Below, one piece after another: positions 14,807-25,321 of a stretch of DNA of 50,920 nt. The notes beneath the pieces are model-generated. The model was given only the letters and a program-made list of their open reading frames with translations, was not told the origin of the DNA and made no database searches. The translations under genes and the position numbers were made by a program. How positions within the stretch are numbered: position 1 is the stretch's first letter; every line of letters starts with the position of its first letter. Source of the DNA: Clostridia bacterium (lineage in GTDB: Bacteria; Bacillota; Clostridia; Christensenellales; CAG-138); contig JAFPWD010000013.1 in assembly GCA_017395105.1 (NCBI GenBank), forward strand, positions 1 to 50,920. Direction: 5' to 3'.

Positions 14807-15955
14807 TTACACGACGGAAGGCTCGGTGAACAGGTTACCCTCTGCAAAGCGTGATAACCTGAGGCGCGAAGCATCTATAGTGGGTTCGAGACCGAGTATC
14901 ATTTCGGCCATGACGGTTCCCGTGACGGGGCCGAACATGAAGCCGTGGCCGCTGAAGCCGCAGGCGACGTAGAAGCCCTCGATGCCATCGACCTTATCGT
15001 ATATCGGCTGACGGTCGGGGGACATATTGTAAAGACCCGCCCACTGGCGAACGACACGCAGCTTGCCTATCGCGGGCAGCACCTTGTCGATCGTTTTGGC
15101 CATTTCCTCGAGGAAATGCCATGAAGATGTTATTCTAAGATCCCTCGGCTCGCCCGCATCGCTTCTACCCATTATGAACGAGCCGTGCGGCGTTTGCTGA
15201 ACGTATAGGTTGAGGTTGAACGCCATTACCATAGGATCCTGCATCGGCTCAACGGGCTCGGTAACGAGGATCTGATGGCGCTCGGAATAAAGCGGAAGCT
15301 CAACGCCGACAAGCTTTGCAAGACCCTGCGCCCAGCCGTTTGCGGCGTTGACAACGATGCGCGTTTCGATATTTCCCTTATTCGTTTCAACGCCCATGAT
15401 CCTGCCGTTTTCGACTCTGATGCCCGTTACCTCGGTGTAGGTATAGAACTCAACGCCAAGTCTCTTGGCGGCCTTGTAGTATGCATCGGTGGTCTTGTGC
15501 GGATTAAGGAAGCCGTCCTTCCCGCAGTATGCGGCACCCGAAAGGATATCGGTGTTGAGATGCGGAACGATTTCTTTTGCCTCATCAAGACTTACCATGC
15601 GAGAGGGAATGCCGCAGGCGTGCTGCACTTCGATATTCTTTTTAAACTGCGCGAGCTCCTTTTCGGTGTTGGCAATCATCAGATAGCCGCTTTGGCGCAG
15701 CTCGATATCGCCGTCATACTCGAGGATATCGTTTGCATTCTCAAAGAATTCCGTGGAGAATTTGGACATTCGGCAGTTCATCTCGGTGCCCCACTGCATG
15801 CGGAAGCCCGCACCGCAGGCGCCGGTGGAGCCGGAGCAGATGAAGCTTTTTTCGATCACGACTATGTTCTTCGCACCGCGCTTTGCCAAATTATAGGCTA
15901 TGGAGCAGCCGGAGATACCGGCGCCGATTATGACGATATCAGCTTTAGTCTTCAT
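14807..15955 (-). CDS. DAO-family FAD oxidoreductase, catalytic subunit of a proline dehydrogenase-type complex
   Basis: 382 aa. An N-terminal FAD-binding GxGxxG (IIGAGISGCSIAYNLAKRG) and the DAO-fold C-terminal RQWAGLYNMSPDRQPIYD and ACGFSGHGFMFGP place it with sarcosine oxidase beta, HcnC and PdhB-type L-proline dehydrogenases. It is the last of five same-strand genes encoding two FAD proteins and three Fe-S proteins, matching the dye-linked L-proline dehydrogenase complexes of Thermococcus (order A-F-X-B). The adjacent P5C dehydrogenase supports L-proline as substrate; D-proline, opines or sarcosine remain alternatives. It overlaps the upstream 2Fe-2S gene by 11 bases. Confidence 0.85.
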   Translation of the reverse strand: MKTKADIVIIGAGISGCSIAYNLAKRGAKNIVVIEKSFICSGSTGACGAGFRMQWGTEMNCRMSKFSTEFFENANDILEYDGDIELRQSGYLMIANTEKELAQFKKNIEVQHACGIPSRMVSLDEAKEIVPHLNTDILSGAAYCGKDGFLNPHKTTDAYYKAAKRLGVEFYTYTEVTGIRVENGRIMGVETNKGNIETRIVVNAANGWAQGLAKLVGVELPLYSERHQILVTEPVEPMQDPMVMAFNLNLYVQQTPHGSFIMGRSDAGEPRDLRITSSWHFLEEMAKTIDKVLPAIGKLRVVRQWAGLYNMSPDRQPIYDKVDGIEGFYVACGFSGHGFMFGPVTGTVMAEMILGLEPTIDASRLRLSRFAEGNLFTEPSVV

Positions 15956-16226
15956 GCTTTTCGGCCTCCTCCGCGATAAGATGCAGCTTCACTCCGACGA
16001 CCGGCGGACGAATGTTGTGAAAGCTGAGGTCGGCTATGCTCTGCCCCGTGGCTGCTGCGATCTCGCGCAGCACGAGCTGTCCGCAGGTCTTGCCCTGGCA
16101 GGGACCCATGCCGATGCGCGTGAGGCGCTTTATCTCATCATAGGTGACGTAGCCCTGCGAGATAAGCTCCCTTATCTCCTTCAGAGTAACGTCGGAACAA
16201 CGGCAAATGATGGTGTTTTCGTCCAT
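15945..16226 (-). CDS. BFD-like [2Fe-2S] protein of the dehydrogenase complex
   Basis: 93 aa from the ATG at 16226 behind AGGAGGGAGG. The pattern CRCSDVTLKEI plus GMGPCQGKTC supplies four cysteines in the order CxC and CxxxxC, as in bacterioferritin-associated-ferredoxin domains found C-terminal in HcnB and in PdhX. It should carry one [2Fe-2S] cluster and pass electrons between the two FAD subunits. It lies four bases after the ferredoxin gene and overlaps the catalytic FAD subunit gene. Confidence 0.85.
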   Translation of the reverse strand: MDENTIICRCSDVTLKEIRELISQGYVTYDEIKRLTRIGMGPCQGKTCGQLVLREIAAATGQSIADLSFHNIRPPVVGVKLHLIAEEAEKHED

Positions 16227-16230
16227 ACGC

Positions 16231-16719
16231 TTATGCCTCCCTCCTGAAATTGCGAAAATCATAGAGATATGCGCGATCTACCTCGAGCGTGATCACAGGG
16301 GTGCGGTCAAAGGACGGCGGATTCATAACCCTTTTGACCGTGGCCTCACAAACGGGCTTGCCCGCACGGTCGAGCCCCACTACCCTCTCCCCCGCCACGG
16401 GGAGCGGCATAAACTCATAGGGAATGCGGAATTCAACGGTTTTTTCCGATTTTGAGCCGTCCACAATCATTATGGAAAGGCCGGGACATTTTGCAACGCA
16501 GATGCCGCAGCCGGTACATAGGCTCTCGTCCCTTTGGGGTATCTCGTTTATATCCTCACCGATGCGGATCGCGCCGCATGGGCAGGCGGTCTGGCAGGGA
16601 TTGCACGGGATCTTCTGATAACATTCCACAACGGCAACGGGACCCTTGTTTATCCTCTCGATGGGAGGAAATTTCGTTATGACCATTTCACGTGTGGCCA
16701 CACCTGTTTTCTCAAACAT
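16231..16719 (-). CDS. 4Fe-4S ferredoxin subunit of the dehydrogenase complex
   Basis: 162 aa. Two cluster motifs are present: CNPCQTACPCGAI (about residues 39-51) and CTGCGICVAKCPG (about 69-81), each followed by a small or proline residue. A C-terminal beta-rich extension of about 70 residues carries no cysteine cluster. The start at 16719 is preferred over the ATG at 16725, because AAGGAGGA is too close to the latter. It corresponds to the PdhF-type subunit and probably exports electrons to the cell's ferredoxin pool or membrane. Confidence 0.83.
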   Translation of the reverse strand: MFEKTGVATREMVITKFPPIERINKGPVAVVECYQKIPCNPCQTACPCGAIRIGEDINEIPQRDESLCTGCGICVAKCPGLSIMIVDGSKSEKTVEFRIPYEFMPLPVAGERVVGLDRAGKPVCEATVKRVMNPPSFDRTPVITLEVDRAYLYDFRNFRREA

Positions 16720-16731
16720 ATTCATTCCTCC

Positions 16732-17814
16732 TTAAAGCTGACTGATTTTCATTCCGGCGCGGATGCGCTCGCCGACGGGGCCTGATCTGAGATCCTCAAG
16801 CTGTTTGAGGTATTCGCTCCTGCGCTGCTCGAAGTCCTCGGAAGCGTGGCCGAGCTTCGCTGCGGCGCAAAGACCTGCAAGATACCCCTCCGCCATGGCG
16901 GAGCTGGCCTCCTCTATGCCCGAAGCATCGCCCGCAACGAAGATGCCGGGGATGCAGGTTTCGCAGCTCTCGCTTCGCATGGGAACGCTTCCGCTGAGCT
17001 GCGGAACGTATTTCATCTCGACTCCGCGCATGGCAAGCAGCTCGTTGAGCGGGCTGAGACCCACGGAGATGCACAGCACGTCCACGTCGAACCGCTTCTC
17101 GGTGCCGGGTATCGGGTCAAATCGCTCATCCACCTCGCACACGATCGCGGCCTCAAGGCAGTCCTTTCCGATCGCCTCTTTAACGGTATGGGAAGTTAGT
17201 ATCGGCACTCCCATTCTTGCAAGCTTCGAAGCATGAACGAGGTATGCTCCGATGCGCGGCGCGGCATCGAGCACCGCAGCCACCTCTATGCCCGCCTGCA
17301 TAAGCTGATAACTCACGATAACGCCGATATTTCCCGCGCCTACCATCAGAACGCGGTTTCCCGGACGTATGCCGTAGACGTTCATAAGGGTCTGCACGGC
17401 TCCCGCGCCGTAGATGCCCGGCAGGTCGTTGTTTGGGAAGGCAAGGGATTTTTCAAAGGCGCCGGTCGCGCAGATCACTGATCTTGCTTTGATTTTGAAG
17501 TATTCCTTTTCATCCTTCAAAACGGTGACCACGTTATCCTCATAAAAGCCGACAGCGGTGGCATTGAGCATCAGCTCTATCCGCTCGCCGTATTCGCCGA
17601 GTTTTTCAATAAGGATATCCGCAATATCCACGCCTCTGTATGATGCGTACTGGCTTTCGGAGCCGAAGAACATGTGGGTCTGCTTTATAAGCTGTCCGCC
17701 GGGCTTGAAGGAGCGCTCGAGAATGAGCACGCTTGCTCCTGAGGATGCCGCAGAGATCGCGGCACAAAGACCCGCGGGTCCGGAACCGATGATAAGCAGT
17801 TCAACCTCTCTCAT
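16732..17814 (-). CDS. FAD/NAD(P)-binding oxidoreductase, alpha subunit of the dehydrogenase complex
   Basis: 360 aa. FAD site IIGSGPAGLCAAISAASSG at the N-terminus, a thioredoxin-reductase-like GGQLI motif, a second nucleotide site VLMVGAGNIGVIVSYQL and a FAD-closing GIFVAGDASGIEEASSA near the end. It resembles HcnB and PdhA, but lacks the N-terminal and C-terminal Fe-S domains fused in many homologues; here those are separate genes on each side. It probably transfers electrons to NAD(P)+. ATGA overlap with the upstream 2Fe-2S gene indicates coupling. Confidence 0.86.
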   Translation of the reverse strand: MREVELLIIGSGPAGLCAAISAASSGASVLILERSFKPGGQLIKQTHMFFGSESQYASYRGVDIADILIEKLGEYGERIELMLNATAVGFYEDNVVTVLKDEKEYFKIKARSVICATGAFEKSLAFPNNDLPGIYGAGAVQTLMNVYGIRPGNRVLMVGAGNIGVIVSYQLMQAGIEVAAVLDAAPRIGAYLVHASKLARMGVPILTSHTVKEAIGKDCLEAAIVCEVDERFDPIPGTEKRFDVDVLCISVGLSPLNELLAMRGVEMKYVPQLSGSVPMRSESCETCIPGIFVAGDASGIEEASSAMAEGYLAGLCAAAKLGHASEDFEQRRSEYLKQLEDLRSGPVGERIRAGMKISQL

Positions 17815-18116
17815 TTGATCCTTCCTTTCCCGTTCTGCGTTTCAACGCTCATGCCTTCGCGAAGCAGCGTGATGCAGGTTCGGACGTTCGGCTCTCCGTC
17901 AACGATCATCTGACAGGAAGCACAGTTTCCTATCGCGCAGTAGAATCCGCGCGGGCGGTGCAGCTCCAAGCTCTTGCCAAGCTCCTTCACTCCCGCCGCA
18001 TGCAGAGCGGCGGCGATCGTTTCCCCTTCGTAACCCTTCATCGGTTGGCCGTTGAAGGTGAAGGCGATCTGCCTGCCGCGTTCAAAGGTAAGAATCGGGT
18101 GCTGATCAATCCTCAT
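17811..18116 (-). CDS. HcnA-like [2Fe-2S] subunit
   Basis: 101 aa from the ATG at 18116 (MRIDQHPIL), preceded by AAAGGA; an ATG six codons upstream overlaps that site and is less likely. A plant-type [2Fe-2S] fold is seen with GFYCAIGNCASCQMIVDG and a later NVRTC, as in HcnA and the small subunits of sarcosine and proline dehydrogenases. It is first in the five-gene set and overlaps the alpha subunit by four bases. It transfers electrons inside the complex. Confidence 0.86.
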   Translation of the reverse strand: MRIDQHPILTFERGRQIAFTFNGQPMKGYEGETIAAALHAAGVKELGKSLELHRPRGFYCAIGNCASCQMIVDGEPNVRTCITLLREGMSVETQNGKGRIK

Positions 18117-18163
18117 ATTCTCATGTCCTTTCATAAAAGAATCGGAAAAGTTCTTTATTTTAC

Positions 18164-18195
18164 AGAACAAAGCCATATTTGCATGGCTTTGTTCT
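18164..18195. repeat. 13-bp perfect inverted repeat between pruA and the dehydrogenase genes
   Basis: AGAACAAAGCCAT (18164-18176) and ATGGCTTTGTTCT (18183-18195) flank a six-base loop. On the minus-strand transcript it is not followed by a U tract, so it does not look like a standard terminator. It could be a processing or stability hairpin, or an operator over an extended -10-like TGTAAAAT. Confidence 0.7.
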
Positions 18196-18211: not shown

Positions 18212-19840
18212 TCATTTTTCAGTCATATAGGGGTAGGCGATCGCTTCGGAGGGATTGAAGGTCTCCTTCACACAATGCGGGCTCATCCAGCGAATCATAT
18301 TGAGCGCGGTTCCCGCCTTGTCGTTGGTGCCGGAAGCGCGCGCGCCGCCAAACGGCTGCTGACCTACCACTGCGCCGGTGCACTTGTCGTTGATGTAGAA
18401 ATTGCCCGCCGAATGCAGCAGCGCCTTCTCCATCATAACTATGGCCTCACGATCCTGCGAGAATATTGCGCCCGTCAGCGCATAGGGGGATGCCTCATCG
18501 CAGATCTTGAGCGTTTTTTCAAGCTCGTCGTCGGGGTATACATAAACCGAAACGATCGGCCCGAAGATCTCCTCTACCATGGATTCGTAATCGGGCTTCT
18601 TGCACACAATGACCGTGGGCTCAACGAACCAGCCCTTGGAATCGTCGCAGCCGCCGCCGATCACGATATCGCAGTCGGGGCTCTTTTTCGCCCTTTCGAT
18701 ATAACCCTTGCAGCGATCGAAGCTCGCCTTGTCGATAACGGCGGCGAGGAAGGTGTCGAAATCCTGAACATCGCCCATCTTGGCCTGCTTGATCATCTCC
18801 TTCATGGCCGAAAGCACGTCGGGCCAGATGCTCTCGGGGATGAACGCGCGTGAGCAGGCGGAGCATTTCTGACCCTGGAACTCAAACGAGCCTCGGATAA
18901 GCGCCGCAGCAAGGGGGCGAACCTTCGCGCTCTTATGAGCAAAGATGAAGTCCTTTCCGCCGGTCTCGCCGACGATGCGCGGATAGTTGCGGTAGGAGGC
19001 GATGTTCTCGCCGATCTGCTTCCAAACGCTCTGAAAAACCTCGGTGGAGCCGGTGAAATGGAAGCCTGCGAGCTCCTCACGGGAGATAACGAACTTTGAC
19101 ATATCGCTGCCGTTGCAGGGTACGAAATTGATAACACCGGCGGGCAGACCGCAGTCCATGAGCAGCTTCATAAAATAATAATTTGAAAGCACAGCCGTGC
19201 GGGAGGGCTTCCATACCGCAACGTTGCCGACTATCGCGGGCGCCATGGGCAGGTTGCCGCCAATGGAGGTGAAGTTGAAGGGCGTTATCGCGCAGATGAA
19301 GCCGTCGAGAGCGCGGTAGTCCTGACGATCCCATATACCGGGGATGGAGCCTGGCTGATCCTTGAAGATCTCCTGTGCGCTCCAAACACCGAAGCGCAGG
19401 AAGTCCGCAAGCTCGGCAATATCTATCTCTGCCTGGAAAACGGTTTTGGACTGACCGAGCATGGTGGAGGCGTTCAGCACCTTGCGGAAGGGGCCGGTTA
19501 TCATATCGGCTGCCTTGAGGAAGATTGCCGAGCGATGCTCCCAGGGCATCTCCTCCCATGCTTTCTTTGCGGAAAGCGCCGCATCGACCGCCATCTTCAG
19601 CTCCTTCTCACCGGCCATGCAGCACTCTGCGATAACGTGGCCGTGATCGTGGGGCATCGTGACCTTGAAGGTGTTTTCGGTGAAAATCTCCTTGCCGCCG
19701 ATTATCAGCGGAATCTTCACGACCTCTGCCGACTGGCGGGCGAGCTCCTCCTTGAGCTCGGCGCGCTCCTTCGAGCCTGGCATATAGCCGAGAAACGGGT
19801 CGTTTTCGGGGCGTTTGATGGTGAAATAAGCGTTTGCCAT
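18212..19840 (-). CDS. pruA: 1-pyrroline-5-carboxylate dehydrogenase
   Basis: 542 aa from the ATG at 19840, fixed by AAGGAGAT. An aldehyde dehydrogenase of the P5CDH class: catalytic cysteine in FQGQKCSACSRAF, general-base glutamate in VGETGGKDF, NAD-binding region AITPFNFTSIGGNLP and the family FTGSTEVF. It oxidises glutamate-5-semialdehyde/P5C to glutamate with NAD+. It stands between rocD, which makes P5C from ornithine, and the dehydrogenase complex, which should make P5C from proline, so both routes meet here. It has its own strong promoter. Confidence 0.94.
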   Translation of the reverse strand: MANAYFTIKRPENDPFLGYMPGSKERAELKEELARQSAEVVKIPLIIGGKEIFTENTFKVTMPHDHGHVIAECCMAGEKELKMAVDAALSAKKAWEEMPWEHRSAIFLKAADMITGPFRKVLNASTMLGQSKTVFQAEIDIAELADFLRFGVWSAQEIFKDQPGSIPGIWDRQDYRALDGFICAITPFNFTSIGGNLPMAPAIVGNVAVWKPSRTAVLSNYYFMKLLMDCGLPAGVINFVPCNGSDMSKFVISREELAGFHFTGSTEVFQSVWKQIGENIASYRNYPRIVGETGGKDFIFAHKSAKVRPLAAALIRGSFEFQGQKCSACSRAFIPESIWPDVLSAMKEMIKQAKMGDVQDFDTFLAAVIDKASFDRCKGYIERAKKSPDCDIVIGGGCDDSKGWFVEPTVIVCKKPDYESMVEEIFGPIVSVYVYPDDELEKTLKICDEASPYALTGAIFSQDREAIVMMEKALLHSAGNFYINDKCTGAVVGQQPFGGARASGTNDKAGTALNMIRWMSPHCVKETFNPSEAIAYPYMTEK

Positions 19841-19916
19841 AGTATCTCCTTCATTTCGGCTCATGTACGCAAGCCGAGTATTTTTGATGCGTCACGGAAG
19901 CTTATCCGTAACATAT

Positions 19917-19946
19917 AATATAACATACCGAGCGGTGTTTTGTCAA
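19917..19946 (-). promoter_or_regulatory. Promoter of pruA
   Basis: On the minus strand, TTGACA (19941-19946), an 18-bp spacer and TATATT (19917-19922). It lies 76 bp before the pruA start, so pruA need not depend on the riboswitch-controlled rocD transcript. Confidence 0.75.
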
Positions 19947-20015
19947 CGCCGAAGATGGCGTGGTTATACGGTCTGAACAGTCGTTTGCAGATAGTTTACC
20001 GTTATCAATAGAATA

Positions 20016-20057
20016 GGGCGGCGGTAAGTAAGGATCGTATTGCCGCCGCCCCTTTTT
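20016..20057. terminator. GC-rich hairpin after rocD
   Basis: GGGCGGCGG (20016-20024) pairs with CCGCCGCCC (20043-20051). The clean T run (20053-20057) follows it on the plus strand; in the rocD direction the trailing sequence is only moderately U-rich (TATTCTATT). It probably ends the rocD transcript, less efficiently than a textbook terminator. Confidence 0.6.
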
Positions 20058-20094: not shown

Positions 20095-21288
20095 TTATCT
20101 GTCGAATGCTTTTTTTATGCGAGCAAGCGCATCAGCGAGCTCTTCGTACGATACCGTTATAGGTGGAGCGAAGCGGATTGTGTTATCATGTGTCTCCTTG
20201 CATAGAACGCCCTCATGTATGCAAGCCTTAACATACTCGTATGCGCTTCCATGGAACTCAACACCGATAAGCAGACCGCGGCCGCGAATCTCCTTGATAT
20301 CCGGATTGTTTATTTTTTTAAGCTCCGCCATGAAGTATTCGCCCTTCTCACGAGCAAGCCTTGGATAATCGTCACGCTGAAGAATCTCGAGCGCTTTAAT
20401 GCCGCAGGCGCAGGCAAGAGGATTGCCGCCGAAGGTGGAACCGTGAGAGCCGGGCGTAAACAGGCCGAGAATATCCGCATTCGCAGCTATAGCTGAAAGA
20501 GGCATCACGCCGCCGCCCAGAGCCTTTCCCATGATATAGATATCGGGAACCACATTCTCGTGCCAGCAAGCGAACATATCGCCGGTGCGCGCAAAGCCGG
20601 TCTGCACCTCGTCCGCAAGGAAGAGGACGTTGTTCTTTGTGCAGATTTCACGCACCTCGCTCAGCCACCCCTCAGGAGGCATAATTATGCCCGCCTCGCC
20701 CTGGATGGGCTCTGCGAGGAAAGCAACGGTATTGGGAGTGATGGCTTCACGCAACGCTTGCGCGTCTCCGTATGGAACGGTTTTGAAGCCGGAGCAGTAC
20801 GGGCCGTAGCCATCCTTTGCGAGCGGATCTGTGGAAAAGCTGATTATCGAAACGGTGCGCCCGTGGAAATTGTTTTCGCAGGTGATGATCTCCTGCTTCC
20901 CGTTCTCAACGCCCTTGATACGCGCCCCCCAGAGCCTTGCGGTTTTCAATGCCGTTTCAACGGCTTCAGCACCGGTGTTCATGGGCAGCACCATATCCTT
21001 GCCGGTGAGCTTGGCAAGGCTTTCGCAAAACTCGCCAAGGTTCTCGCTGTGGAACGCACGGCTGGTGAGCGTGCAGCTGTCGAGCTGTGCCTTGGCTGCC
21101 GCAACTATCTCAGGGTGACGGTGCCCGAAATTGTGCGCCGAGTATGCTGACAGCATGTCATAGTACCTCAAACCCTCGGGATCGGTAACAACGGTTCCCT
21201 CGGCGTTTGCTATGACGACGGGCTTCGGAGCGTAATTATGCGCGCCGTAACGGGTGGTTTTTTCGATGATTTGTGCAGATGAATACAT
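20095..21288 (-). CDS. rocD: Ornithine aminotransferase
   Basis: 397 aa from the ATG at 21288 behind AAAAAGGAG. A class III PLP aminotransferase: cofactor-contact FLADEVQTGFARTGDMFAC, the PLP lysine in YIMGKALGGGVMPLSA, and GSHGSTFGGNPLACA. The N-terminal Y-GAHNYAPKPVVI and AYSAHNFGHRHP are typical of ornithine--oxo-acid transaminase, which converts L-ornithine and 2-oxoglutarate to glutamate-5-semialdehyde and glutamate. pruA and the proline dehydrogenase genes follow on the same strand. Its leader contains a cobalamin riboswitch and a terminator 43 bp before the start, so expression should fall when B12 is plentiful. Confidence 0.94.
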   Translation of the reverse strand: MYSSAQIIEKTTRYGAHNYAPKPVVIANAEGTVVTDPEGLRYYDMLSAYSAHNFGHRHPEIVAAAKAQLDSCTLTSRAFHSENLGEFCESLAKLTGKDMVLPMNTGAEAVETALKTARLWGARIKGVENGKQEIITCENNFHGRTVSIISFSTDPLAKDGYGPYCSGFKTVPYGDAQALREAITPNTVAFLAEPIQGEAGIIMPPEGWLSEVREICTKNNVLFLADEVQTGFARTGDMFACWHENVVPDIYIMGKALGGGVMPLSAIAANADILGLFTPGSHGSTFGGNPLACACGIKALEILQRDDYPRLAREKGEYFMAELKKINNPDIKEIRGRGLLIGVEFHGSAYEYVKACIHEGVLCKETHDNTIRFAPPITVSYEELADALARIKKAFDR

Positions 21289-21330
21289 GGCTTTCTCCTT
21301 TTTTGTTTTTTGCATGCTTCATCCTCGTAA

Positions 21331-21367
21331 GAAAAAAGAACCGCCTTCCGACCCGATCGGAAAACGG
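21331..21367 (-). terminator. Riboswitch expression-platform terminator ahead of rocD
   Basis: On the minus strand an 11-bp stem (CCGTTTTCCGA and TCGGAAGGCGG, with two G-U pairs, at 21357-21367 and 21341-21351) has a five-base loop and is followed by TTCTTTTTTC. It lies between the cobalamin aptamer and the rocD ribosome binding site, as expected for a termination-controlled riboswitch. Confidence 0.82.
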
Positions 21368-21459
21368 CACACCAAAATCACGCCCCAAAACGCCGAAAAA
21401 GCGTATTTGCGGCCGACCTCAGATGAGCTACTTTTCTCCGGAGGATACTCATCGTTCCG

Positions 21460-21632
21460 TCTGAGCAGGTTTCCTGACTTGCGGCGTAACGCCCGTTCGC
21501 GCCTTCTCACCTTGCGGCAATGGCATATTGCGAAGGACTATCCGTTCACAGTGACCGGTTCGTCCGGGATTTGCACCCGATTCCCTATTATCCCGCTGCG
21601 GCACAAGCCGAGCAGGCACTCAAACAGTAGAC
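21460..21632 (-). promoter_or_regulatory. Cobalamin (adenosylcobalamin-type) riboswitch
   Basis: Reading the minus strand, the conserved core elements occur in order: a P1-side GAGTGCCTGC, the aptamer core AATAGGGAATCGGGTGCAAA, TCCCGGACGAACCGGTCACTG with the CACTGTG element, a variable peripheral stem region, and the B12 box AAGTCAGGAAACCTGC at the 3' end (about 21465-21482). This is the standard cobalamin riboswitch. It reads toward rocD only. No cobalamin synthesis or transport gene lies downstream, which is the usual context of the family. Confidence 0.95.
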
Positions 21633-21638
21633 CCGTAT

Positions 21639-21667
21639 ATTTTAGCATATAACTCGAACGGTTTCAA
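21639..21667 (-). promoter_or_regulatory. Promoter of the riboswitch-rocD transcript
   Basis: On the minus strand, TTGAAA (21662-21667), 17-bp spacer, TAAAAT (21639-21644), placing the transcript start just before the aptamer 5' stem. Confidence 0.8.
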
Positions 21668-21886: not shown

Positions 21887-21930
21887 ATAGTTGATAATTG
21901 TATTTCGGTTTATCCGCGAAAGGAAACAAA

Positions 21931-23661
21931 GTGTTTGACAAAAGACTTATGAAGCTCTGCCCCGAGAGCAAAAAATACATTGTTTTGAATATCGTTTTGC
22001 AGCTTGTTGAGCTTGGCTGCAACGTGGTTATGATAGGCGCTGTTGCGCTTTCGGTTCAAAGGCTGTATGAGCGCTCATGGGGCTTGAAGGAGCTCGTTCT
22101 CCCTGCCGTTATTATAGCCGCAAGCATAGCCGTTCGTTTTCTCACAACGCGCTATGCGGTGCGCATGAGCTATCTTGCTTCACGCACGGTCAAGAGCGTT
22201 ATGCGCGAAAAGATTTACGCCAAGCTTCTGAGGCTCGGAACGTCTTATCGTGAGCATGCCGCCACAGCCGAGCTCGTTCAGGAATCCACCGAGGGCGTGG
22301 AGCAGCTTGAGAGTTATTTCGGGCAGTATGTTCCCCAATTCTTCTATGCATTTATCGCGCCGATCGTGCTGTTTTTCCTTTTCGGCTTTTCGGGGAGCTG
22401 GCTCGTTGCGGCGGTACTGCTTATCTGCGTTCCGCTCATCCCGGGCGCGATAATCATGGTTCAGAAGATCGCAAAGAGGATACTCTCAAAGTATTGGGGG
22501 CAGTACACCAAGCTCGGCAGCACCTTCCTTGAGAATCTGCAGGGAATGACGACCCTCAAGATCTACCAGGCCGATGAATTCAAAAACGAGGAGATGAACC
22601 GCGAAAGCGAGCGTTTTCGCAAGGTGACGATGGCAGTGCTGACAATGCAGCTTAACTCGGTCACGATCATGGACTTCGTTGCCTACGGCGGCGCTGCGCT
22701 CGGCATTTTACTCGCCGGAAAAGCCTTCATAAACGGAACTCTGCCGCTTGCGAACTGCATTTTTATGATACTGCTTTCGGCGGAGTTCTTCCTTCCCATG
22801 CGCAGGCTCGGGAGCTATTTTCATGTGGCTATGAACGGCATGGCGGCAAGCGATAGAATATTCGAGTTTTTGAGCGTTGAAGAACCCGCCGAGAAAACGG
22901 AAAAGGTCGAAGGCTTTGATATTGCACTCCGTGACGTTCGTTTTTCATACGACAAGGAGCGCGAAATACTTCACGGCATAAGTCTTTCGATACCCGAAAA
23001 CTCGTTCGTTGGCATCGTAGGCGAATCGGGAAGCGGAAAATCGACCGTGGCAAGGCTCATCTTGGGCAGAAACACGGTCGGTTCGGGAGTCATCACGGTC
23101 GGCAGGAAGGATATTTGCACGCTGAACGAAGAAAGCCTGATGAAGTTCATCACCTATATCGGCTTCAACTCGGTATTTTTTAAGGGCAGCGTGCGCGAGA
23201 ATCTGCTGCTTGCAGATAGGAGCGCATCCGACGAAAGGCTTTGGAGCGTTCTTGAAAGCTGCGCACTCTCCGACTTCTTCAAAAGCGAAAACGGGCTTGA
23301 AACTTCGCTTCTTGAAAACGCCTCCAATCTTTCGGGCGGTCAGAAGCAGCGGCTCGCGCTTGCAAGGGCGCTTCTGCATGATTCGCCGATATATATTTTC
23401 GATGAGGCGACCAGCAATATAGATGTTGAGAGCGAGGAAGCGATCCTTGGCAGCATACTGCGCCTGCGCGGGCAAAAGACGATCATCATGATATCGCATC
23501 GGCTTATGAACGTTGTGAATGCCGACAGGATCTATTGCATGGAAAACGGCGAAATTGCGGAAGAAGGAACGCATAGCGAGCTTATCGATCGCGGCGGCAT
23601 ATATGCAAGGCTCCATAAAACCCAGCAAGCTCTTGAAAATTTCGGAAGGGAGGCGGTTTGA
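21931..23661 (+). CDS. ABC transporter, fused membrane/ATPase protein (first of a pair)
   Basis: 576 aa from a GTG at 21931 behind AAAGGAAA. A six-helix exporter-type membrane domain (about 1-320) precedes an ATPase domain with Walker A GESGSGKS, signature LSGGQKQRLALARALL, Walker B PIYIFDEATS and H-loop SHRL. It forms a heterodimer with the next gene, one base downstream of its stop. Such pairs include CydDC-like thiol exporters and the IrtAB/YbtPQ group that imports iron-siderophores despite the exporter fold. The operon also encodes a DUF454 protein and a metal-binding HMA protein, and it is controlled by two copies of the shared palindrome, which favours metal-related transport. Confidence 0.87.
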   Translation: MFDKRLMKLCPESKKYIVLNIVLQLVELGCNVVMIGAVALSVQRLYERSWGLKELVLPAVIIAASIAVRFLTTRYAVRMSYLASRTVKSVMREKIYAKLLRLGTSYREHAATAELVQESTEGVEQLESYFGQYVPQFFYAFIAPIVLFFLFGFSGSWLVAAVLLICVPLIPGAIIMVQKIAKRILSKYWGQYTKLGSTFLENLQGMTTLKIYQADEFKNEEMNRESERFRKVTMAVLTMQLNSVTIMDFVAYGGAALGILLAGKAFINGTLPLANCIFMILLSAEFFLPMRRLGSYFHVAMNGMAASDRIFEFLSVEEPAEKTEKVEGFDIALRDVRFSYDKEREILHGISLSIPENSFVGIVGESGSGKSTVARLILGRNTVGSGVITVGRKDICTLNEESLMKFITYIGFNSVFFKGSVRENLLLADRSASDERLWSVLESCALSDFFKSENGLETSLLENASNLSGGQKQRLALARALLHDSPIYIFDEATSNIDVESEEAILGSILRLRGQKTIIMISHRLMNVVNADRIYCMENGEIAEEGTHSELIDRGGIYARLHKTQQALENFGREAV

Positions 23662-23662
23662 A

Positions 23663-25321
23663 ATGAAGAACGGAAGCAAACTCAAAACGCTCCTTCGCAT
23701 GCTTAAGCTCGTTAAGCCCTTGAGCGGCTTTATGCTTCTTGCGGTCGTAATGGGCACGCTCGGCTTTCTTTGCGCGCAGTTCATACCCATACTTGGCGGT
23801 TTCCTGGTGCTGCACGGGCTGAAAGTGACCGTTCCGCTGTCTGTGAAAACAGTTTCTGTCGCTCTTATAGTGATCGCTCTGCTTCGCGCCGTGCTTAAAT
23901 ACGCCGAGCAGCGCACCAATCACTATATCGCCTTCACGCTGCTTGCCATCATACGCGACAAGGTGTTCAAGGCGCTGCGCCGTCTCTGCCCCGCCAAGCT
24001 CGAGGGGCGCGACAAGGGCGATCTCATCTCACTTATAACGGGCGACGTGGAGCTGCTTGAAGTTTTCTACGCGCACACCATATCCCCGATAGCGATAGCC
24101 GTTTTGACCGAGCTTGTGATGGTCGTATTCATCGGCTCGTATCATCCGGCGCTCGGTCTGCTCGCATTCATCGCCTATATCTCCGTCGGCATTCTGCTTC
24201 CCCTGATAGTATCAAGGCGCAGCGGAACGCTCGGAGATGAGCTTAGAGAGGGTAACGGCGCGCTTTCCGCATTTATGCTCGAAAGCATACGCGGACTCGA
24301 TGAAACCATACAGTACGGCGGAGGCAGCGAGCGGCTTTCAGAGCTTGATAAAAGAACGGAAGCGCTCTCAAAGAAGCAATCCGCGTTCAACAAACTCACC
24401 GGAGTAAACCTTGCGCTTGCAAACAGCATGGTGCTTGCGTTCGATCTTGCCATGCTCGCGCTTTGCGCCGCGCTCTACTCGGGCGGAATGATTGAAGTCG
24501 ACGGGCTTATTATCCCGCTGATTGCGCTGATGTCCTCCTTCGGACCCGTTCTCGCACTCGCCGGACTCGGAACGACCCTGCAGGCGACCGCCGCATCGGG
24601 CGCAAGGGTGCTCTCGGTGCTGGACGAAAGCCCCGAAACAGAGGACGTTGTCGGACTGAAGCAGATAAGCTTTAACGGCGCCGAAGCCGAAGGTGTCTTT
24701 TTCTCCTACGGCGGAGAAAGCGTTTTGAACGGCGTTTCGTTAAGCTTTCCGCAGGATCGTATAATCGGAATAGTCGGCAGAAGCGGCTGCGGCAAATCCA
24801 CCCTTTTAAAGCTCTTGATGCGGTTTTGGAAAACGGACGAGGGCAGCATTGAAATATCCGGAAGGAATATCGACTCGATAAACACCTCCGATCTGCGCCA
24901 AATGGAGGGCTATATGACTCAGGAAACCGTGCTGTTCAAGAGCACGGTTAAGGAGAATATCCGCATTGCAAAGCTCGATGCTTCGATGGAAGAGATAGAG
25001 CTTGCCTGCAAAAAAGCCTCTATTCACGACTTTATTACTACGCTTCCCAAGGGCTATGAAACCGACATTGGAGAGCTCGGAGAAACGCTCTCCGGCGGCG
25101 AACGCCAGCGCATAGGGCTTGCGCGCGCATTTCTGCACGATGCCCCCTTCCTTTTGCTCGATGAGCCGACCAGCAATTTAGACAGCCTCAACGAAGCCGA
25201 GATCCTGCGCTCGCTCAAGGAGGAAACCGCGGGCAAGACCGTCGTGCTTGTTTCCCACAGGAGCTCGACCGTGCGCATTGCAGACAGAACCGTGACGATG
25301 GATAACGGAAAGGTTCTATAA
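23663..25321 (+). CDS. ABC transporter, fused membrane/ATPase protein (second of a pair)
   Basis: 552 aa; the start ATG at 23663 follows GGAAGGGAGG inside the previous gene's end, and the longer open frame upstream only reads through that gene. It has a six-helix membrane domain and an ATPase domain with GRSGCGKST, LSGGERQRIGLARAFL, FLLLDEPTSNLD and SHRSS. The H-loop histidine is present, so both ATPase sites of the heterodimer may be active. Confidence 0.87.
   Translation: MKNGSKLKTLLRMLKLVKPLSGFMLLAVVMGTLGFLCAQFIPILGGFLVLHGLKVTVPLSVKTVSVALIVIALLRAVLKYAEQRTNHYIAFTLLAIIRDKVFKALRRLCPAKLEGRDKGDLISLITGDVELLEVFYAHTISPIAIAVLTELVMVVFIGSYHPALGLLAFIAYISVGILLPLIVSRRSGTLGDELREGNGALSAFMLESIRGLDETIQYGGGSERLSELDKRTEALSKKQSAFNKLTGVNLALANSMVLAFDLAMLALCAALYSGGMIEVDGLIIPLIALMSSFGPVLALAGLGTTLQATAASGARVLSVLDESPETEDVVGLKQISFNGAEAEGVFFSYGGESVLNGVSLSFPQDRIIGIVGRSGCGKSTLLKLLMRFWKTDEGSIEISGRNIDSINTSDLRQMEGYMTQETVLFKSTVKENIRIAKLDASMEEIELACKKASIHDFITTLPKGYETDIGELGETLSGGERQRIGLARAFLHDAPFLLLDEPTSNLDSLNEAEILRSLKEETAGKTVVLVSHRSSTVRIADRTVTMDNGKVL

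Follow-up and report, generated by a model that had tools for sequence, protein, structure and literature searches.

The window, that is, the whole stretch of 50,920 nucleotides analysed here (contig JAFPWD010000013.1, assembly GCA_017395105.1), belongs to a Clostridia bacterium whose genome, designated G000, amounts to 1.9 Mb in 58 contigs and is 68% complete. On its minus strand, a promoter-like site, a cobalamin riboswitch aptamer, a terminator, a Shine-Dalgarno sequence and the ornithine aminotransferase (OAT) gene rocD follow one another in this order, riboswitch and gene lying on the same strand. The rocA gene comes next. The main features are the following:

21639..21667, minus strand: sigma-70-like promoter of the rocD leader, TTGAAA-17-TAAAAT (10/12 matches, weak alone; position 21667 is the -35 end)
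21447..21638, minus strand: cobalamin riboswitch aptamer, RF00174 (108.1 bits, E=3.3e-26, model positions 1-189 of 189)
21332..21367, minus strand: intrinsic terminator from the pattern scan, stem 21367-21341 and U tract 21340-21332 (-19.2 kcal/mol)
21295..21300, minus strand: Shine-Dalgarno sequence AAGGAG of rocD, read from the sequence
20095..21288, minus strand: rocD, ornithine aminotransferase, 397 amino acids (TIGR01885; 3ruy; the ORF caller gives 20095-21315)
19917..19946, minus strand: promoter-like site of rocA, downstream of rocD, TTGACA-18-TATATT (11/12 matches)
18212..19864, minus strand: rocA, L-glutamate gamma-semialdehyde dehydrogenase, the step after OAT (TIGR01236, 786.7 over 613.6)

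The rocD product scored 470.7 bits against TIGR01885, above the cut-off of 378.4. The best-scoring model, PRK04073, is also an ornithine--oxo-acid transaminase (594, below its own cut-off of 656), and the nearest solved structure by sequence is the ornithine aminotransferase 3ruy. At the aligned motifs, residues Y55, Y85, R180, E235, K292 and R413 of human OAT (5vwo), which we take to be its substrate and PLP residues, are all identical in the rocD product. Translation most likely starts at the ATG at 21288, behind AAGGAG, rather than at 21315, because the latter ATG is missing from the sister genome.

The rocA gene carries a promoter-like site of its own, whose TTGACA is invariant in an alignment with four relatives in which no rocD adjoins rocA; rocD alone thus appears to be controlled by the riboswitch, and a riboswitch acting over a rocD-rocA operon is disfavoured. 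In three genomes of genus g13 (G013, G034 and G079, coordinates checked), rocA instead stands 20-39 nt ahead of rocD, on the same strand. In five relatives examined, rocA and the neighbouring dehydrogenase-like genes are conserved without rocD. These neighbours, at 14807-18176 of the window after rocA, encode four dehydrogenase-like subunits (2Fe-2S, FAD/NAD, 4Fe-4S and DAO-type FAD) that are sarcosine-oxidase-like and possibly form a proline or similar amino-acid dehydrogenase. Between rocD and rocA, a strong G+C-rich hairpin at 20015-20057 has a T run on the plus strand and a weak one on the minus strand; it is absent from the list of the terminator pattern scan. On the other side, divergent from rocD, CydDC-like ABC exporter genes occupy 21898-25321; they are unmatched in the rocA stretches of the five relatives, so that side of the locus is lineage-specific as well.

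The aptamer was assessed with an Rfam scan of the window, in which a tRNA was the sole other match. RF00174 matched from 21638 to 21447 over the full length of the model, far above its gathering threshold of 31.5 bits. A sequence-only reading of this DNA had listed the conserved cobalamin aptamer motifs in the rocD leader and proposed the covariance model as a check; the motifs are present, and the model agrees. It had also announced an 11-bp terminator with a U tract ahead of rocD, and the stem does comprise 11 pairs, two of them G-U (the pattern scan counts 13 pairs). By its sequence, the rocD leader is a real and ordinary class-I cobalamin riboswitch. The flanking signals were judged differently: the pattern scans returned four promoter-like sites where 2.3 were expected, and four terminator-like sites where 3.2 were expected from shuffles, and the rocD terminator is not significant alone. 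As these scans are barely above chance, the case for both signals rests on their position and on homologous leaders, those of the cbiK-like genes in G080 and G040 (genus g25), where hexamers aligned with the promoter-like site stand at the same place.

From folds and by inspection, an expression platform and its kissing contact with the aptamer could be delineated, with the following candidate elements:

21555..21558, minus strand: candidate L5 kissing strand CCGG, by inspection; only 4 bp
21422..21453, minus strand: candidate P13-L13 hairpin, with L13 CCGG at 21441-21438 (-6.1 kcal/mol in isolation)
21434..21440, minus strand: putative antiterminator 5' arm CGGAGAA, common to L13 and the 3' side of P13 (folds)
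21358..21364, minus strand: putative antiterminator 3' arm UUUUCCG, inside the terminator 5' arm (folds)

In folds of the platform alone, ending after the terminator 5' arm, the duplex CGGAGAA:UUUUCCG was part of the minimum-energy structure in all four leaders considered (window, G068, G080 and G040). When the fold took in the entire leader, as far as the terminator 5' arm, the probability of the antiterminator was 0.91-1.0 in the window, 0.43-0.99 in G080 and 0.02-0.03 in G040, so that the whole-leader fold of G040 does not favour it. Once the 3' arm was made, the terminator pairs reached 0.98-1.0 in the window. The antiterminator duplex is more stable than the isolated P13 in the window (-8.2 versus -6.1 kcal/mol), whereas P13 is the more stable of the two in G080 (-8.9 versus -8.2 kcal/mol) and G040 (-10.6 versus -7.5 kcal/mol). 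By chance, a 7-bp match arises in 1.4% of shuffled 14-nt arms.

The candidate L5-L13 contact, CCGG:CCGG, consists of 4 bp found by inspection; an automatic search for at least five complementary kissing bases gave none in the window leader, the 4-bp CCGG being below that threshold. The P13-L13 hairpin sequence is strongly conserved in the G080 and G040 leaders, and both CCGG strands are invariant in the four leaders. Since the kissing and antiterminator strands are identical across these leaders, covariation gives them no support. A survey of kissing-loop covariation across the family leaders was exploratory, had no null model and lacked the core or box at many loci, and it was not used.

We then considered whether a B12-dependent ornithine route coexists with rocD, as the sequence-only reading had predicted; the search could have failed, and it found an ornithine aminomutase cluster on contig C55 of the same genome. 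There, ord, ortA, ortB, oraS, oraE, or-4 and an orr-like gene stand together. Ord, OrtA, OrtB, OraE and Or-4 are above curated cut-offs, OraS scores 181.6 with PF16552 (cut-off 29.7), and the orr-like gene is just below its own (443.5 versus 480). OraE is a D-ornithine 4,5-aminomutase by NF040743. OAT and this enzyme make different products from ornithine. No RF00174 match was found on C55, the contig of the ora cluster. The genome has four RF00174 matches in total, one being that at rocD. Another, on C44, precedes an ORF with a Dockerin_1 match, and the remaining two are divergently oriented on C45. One of these precedes a cbiK-like gene that does not reach the NF047852 cut-off (251.5 bits versus 400); downstream of the other come a permease-like ORF, an ABC ATPase, a CobB/CbiA-type gene and cbiD.

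The layout of the rocD leader predicts an OFF switch that works by terminating transcription. The class-I riboswitch would repress rocD as follows. With adenosylcobalamin bound, the L5-L13 kissing contact would hold P13-L13, CGGAGAA on the 3' side of P13 would not be free, the terminator at 21367-21341 would form and OAT would not be made. Without B12, CGGAGAA would pair with UUUUCCG in the 5' arm of the terminator, thereby blocking the latter, and OAT would be made. Since L13 and the 3' side of P13 both include bases of CGGAGAA, the P13-L13 hairpin and the antiterminator are mutually exclusive. The adenosylcobalamin enzyme OraSE would start the other ornithine route in the same cell and, when left without cofactor, would be relieved by a B12-free route to glutamate through OAT and then RocA, which would be encoded constitutively. 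With a B12 switch on OAT and an OraSE route in the genome, it is probably only under B12 shortage that the cell turns to the spare route. To this reading, repression of rocD by termination and opening of the B12-free ornithine route when OraSE lacks its cofactor, we give a probability of about three in four. Ligand binding, the direction of regulation and the flux logic are points that we infer, as is the leader's recruitment from a gene for cobalamin synthesis.

The closest known system is the metE switch of Priestia megaterium, where P13 and an antiterminator combining the 3' side of P13 with the 5' arm of the terminator have been dissected by mutation (PMC10653944, available text). The rocD leader shares with it the class-I aptamer, the terminator and, as candidate elements, the L5-L13 contact, P13 and the antiterminator (PMC10653944), as well as a B12-independent enzyme standing beside a B12-dependent one, as MetE does beside MetH (PMC9600662). 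It differs in having no tandem SAM switch and in its target, an ornithine aminotransferase. The nrdAB/nrdABS genes likewise place a B12-independent enzyme under a cobalamin riboswitch (PMC4342826), but they form a true isofunctional pair, while rocD concerns another enzyme and another pathway. Set against these systems, the present genome does contain the B12-dependent counterpart (oraS and oraE, in the cluster on C55), but the two enzymes do not catalyse the same reaction, OAT being compared with D-ornithine 4,5-aminomutase. Because OAT and OraSE start different pathways, the arrangement works like metE and nrd control without being a pair of isozymes. It comes close to the category 'isozymes of B12-dependent enzymes' of the cobalamin regulons described by Sun et al. 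in 2013 (PMC3766115). In the available part of the main text of that study, the supplement being outside our search, rocD does not appear; 'Ornithine degradation' is in the category list for all motifs and not among the four categories named for cobalamin.

A comparison of related genomes was carried out to assess how widespread the arrangement is. A search at E <= 1e-80 recovered rocD from nine of 101 family genomes: G000, its sister G068, six of genus g13 and one of g4. The sister species (G068, RUG13931) has the same leader (99% over 311 nt) and the same rocD (98% protein identity). The seven others have no switch at rocD: six show no RF00174 match on the rocD contig among the listed matches, which equal the number stated per genome, and G003 has none within its rocD locus. 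The expectation that related rocD leaders would carry the aptamer was thus borne out in the sister species and failed in the rest of the family, and the riboswitch as an ancestral regulator of rocD was rejected. OraS was above cut-off in 14 of 22 chosen genomes, including 10 of the 11 of the window's genus, and in none of the seven other rocD genomes, so that within the family the switch is present in 2/2 rocD genomes with OraS and in 0/7 without. The two switch-bearing genomes being sister species, this association amounts to one event.

In addition, 80 rocD loci were fetched from named genomes. Rfam scans of 71 of them gave RF00174 at a single locus, L043, which is the sister species RUG13931; the nine others, distant, were checked by a motif script only. 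Loci L099 and L117 have no upstream sequence, and L062 and L066 only about 210 nt. Recurrence of the rocD riboswitch in separate lineages was not found among the 71 loci. OraS was present in 4 of 50 named rocD genomes, namely RUG13931 and three others outside the family, a Tissierellia (L084), a Sedimentibacter (L090) and a Treponema (L091), and at rocD in these last three the switch is absent. The association of the switch with rocD and OraS is therefore one event plus three exceptions.

The history of the locus was approached through the leader and the gene separately. The leader is homologous, platform included, to that of the cbiK-like gene in G080 (76% over positions 7-309 of the 311 of the query), and to that of G040 (77% over 12-230, the rest being aligned by MAFFT). 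These leaders share promoter position, aptamer, P13 and terminator region with the window, and they differ in the gene downstream, which resembles a cobaltochelatase gene (NF047852, 226.4 and 235.4 bits where the curated cut-off is 400). A search of 103 family genomes at E <= 1e-5 returned only G000, G068, G080 and G040, plus G055 over 52 nt. In an order-wide draw, 9 of 396 genomes had leader matches, the six new ones covering only 48-161 nt inside the aptamer. An origin from within the genome was tried and dropped, the other three RF00174 leaders of G000 being unmatched to the rocD leader at E <= 1e-5. As for the gene, rocD is present in 2 of 11 genomes of the window's genus. In a tree of the window with 47 of the 80 rocD loci, the window and L043 fall inside a supported set of 22 proteins (95/90), and the other members of this set have no switch in the Rfam scans. 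To judge from its sequence relationships, rocD looks horizontally acquired. The leader being homologous to cbiK-like leaders and rocD apparently acquired, OAT seems to have gained a switch that belonged to cobalamin synthesis: rocD would have come by transfer and taken up, or been given, the cobalamin-synthesis leader, the move presumably having gone in that direction. That the cassette moved in this way and now selects between two non-equivalent ornithine routes according to B12 is, in our estimation, somewhat favoured.

The same facts bear on another account, according to which rocD was inserted after a leader already under B12 control; the switch would function, but repression of OAT by B12 would serve no ornithine logic. 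The kinship of the leader with those of cbiK-like genes, the acquired look of rocD, nested among the rocD of other rumen Clostridia, and the singleness of the event all suit such a passive capture. Against it, leader, platform and rocD have been kept together in both sister species, and the event took place in a genus whose genomes commonly carry OraS. One event does not suffice to tell the two accounts apart; we regard passive capture as unlikely, though it is the most serious of the alternatives. Constraint on the leader was examined between the sister species, where it differs at 3/309 sites, compared with 29/195 at the fourfold sites of rocD (P = 4e-10). With 3/256 and 3/96 differing sites, the intergenic DNA on its flanks is equally conserved, so the leader is conserved but not demonstrably more so than its surroundings; the intergenic stretches of the ora cluster range from 0/38 and 2/96 to 19/141. 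A non-functional relic is disfavoured, as both sister species retain an intact promoter, aptamer, terminator and gene, an objection weakened by this comparison with the flanks.

OAT is reversible, and it could also run towards ornithine or feed proline synthesis, B12 control then being another link to cobalamin metabolism. The dehydrogenase-like subunits conserved beside rocA could make pyrroline-5-carboxylate, which suits this idea. However, feeding OraSE would need induction by B12 and not repression; an ArcA-like gene that falls short of its cut-off (423.6 bits versus 489.1) offers a route from arginine to ornithine; and neither G000 nor G068 yielded proC (TIGR00112), though that gene turned up in just 5 of 18 genomes, three of them above cut-off. 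We consider this explanation improbable. A prdA/grd-type reductase (PF09338) was matched in neither G000 nor G068, and in 1 of 17 genomes. Finally, activating corrinoid switches exist, as in A. halodurans cobT, where P13 itself is the antiterminator (PMC10653944, available text), but here the terminator shares no strands with P13 and a separate antiterminator does, which is the repressing layout of that same source and makes activation very improbable.

Returning to the reading of rocD as repressed when B12 is present, rocD is an unreported target of the cobalamin riboswitch, and the genome context fits a logic of pathway choice. The claim that no B12 riboswitch had been described on rocD held in the literature searched, subscription papers and supplements lying outside it. 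If the reading is true, a pathway selector would extend the isozyme rule of metE and nrd to whole catabolic routes, and B12 availability, acting directly through RNA, would switch amino-acid fermentation as well as the processes already known, in a rumen-type bacterium whose setting is one where cobamides are shared goods. It would also be a clear instance of a riboswitch, together with its platform, finding a second use on a gene that came by horizontal transfer. In any organism that has both OraSE and a B12-free ornithine route, B12 may then decide which of them runs.

Other cobalamin riboswitches were noticed along the way. In the window's genus (L002, L005 and L011-L017), many RF00174 matches precede secreted-looking proteins beginning like MKLCKK; in the window's genome it is such an ORF that has the Dockerin_1 match. 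At L030 (G013, C14, 15759-15969, minus strand), the match lies ahead of an ORF that resembles methylmalonyl-CoA mutase by eye; a cobalamin riboswitch on mutA of Veillonella parvula has already been published (PMC9600662).
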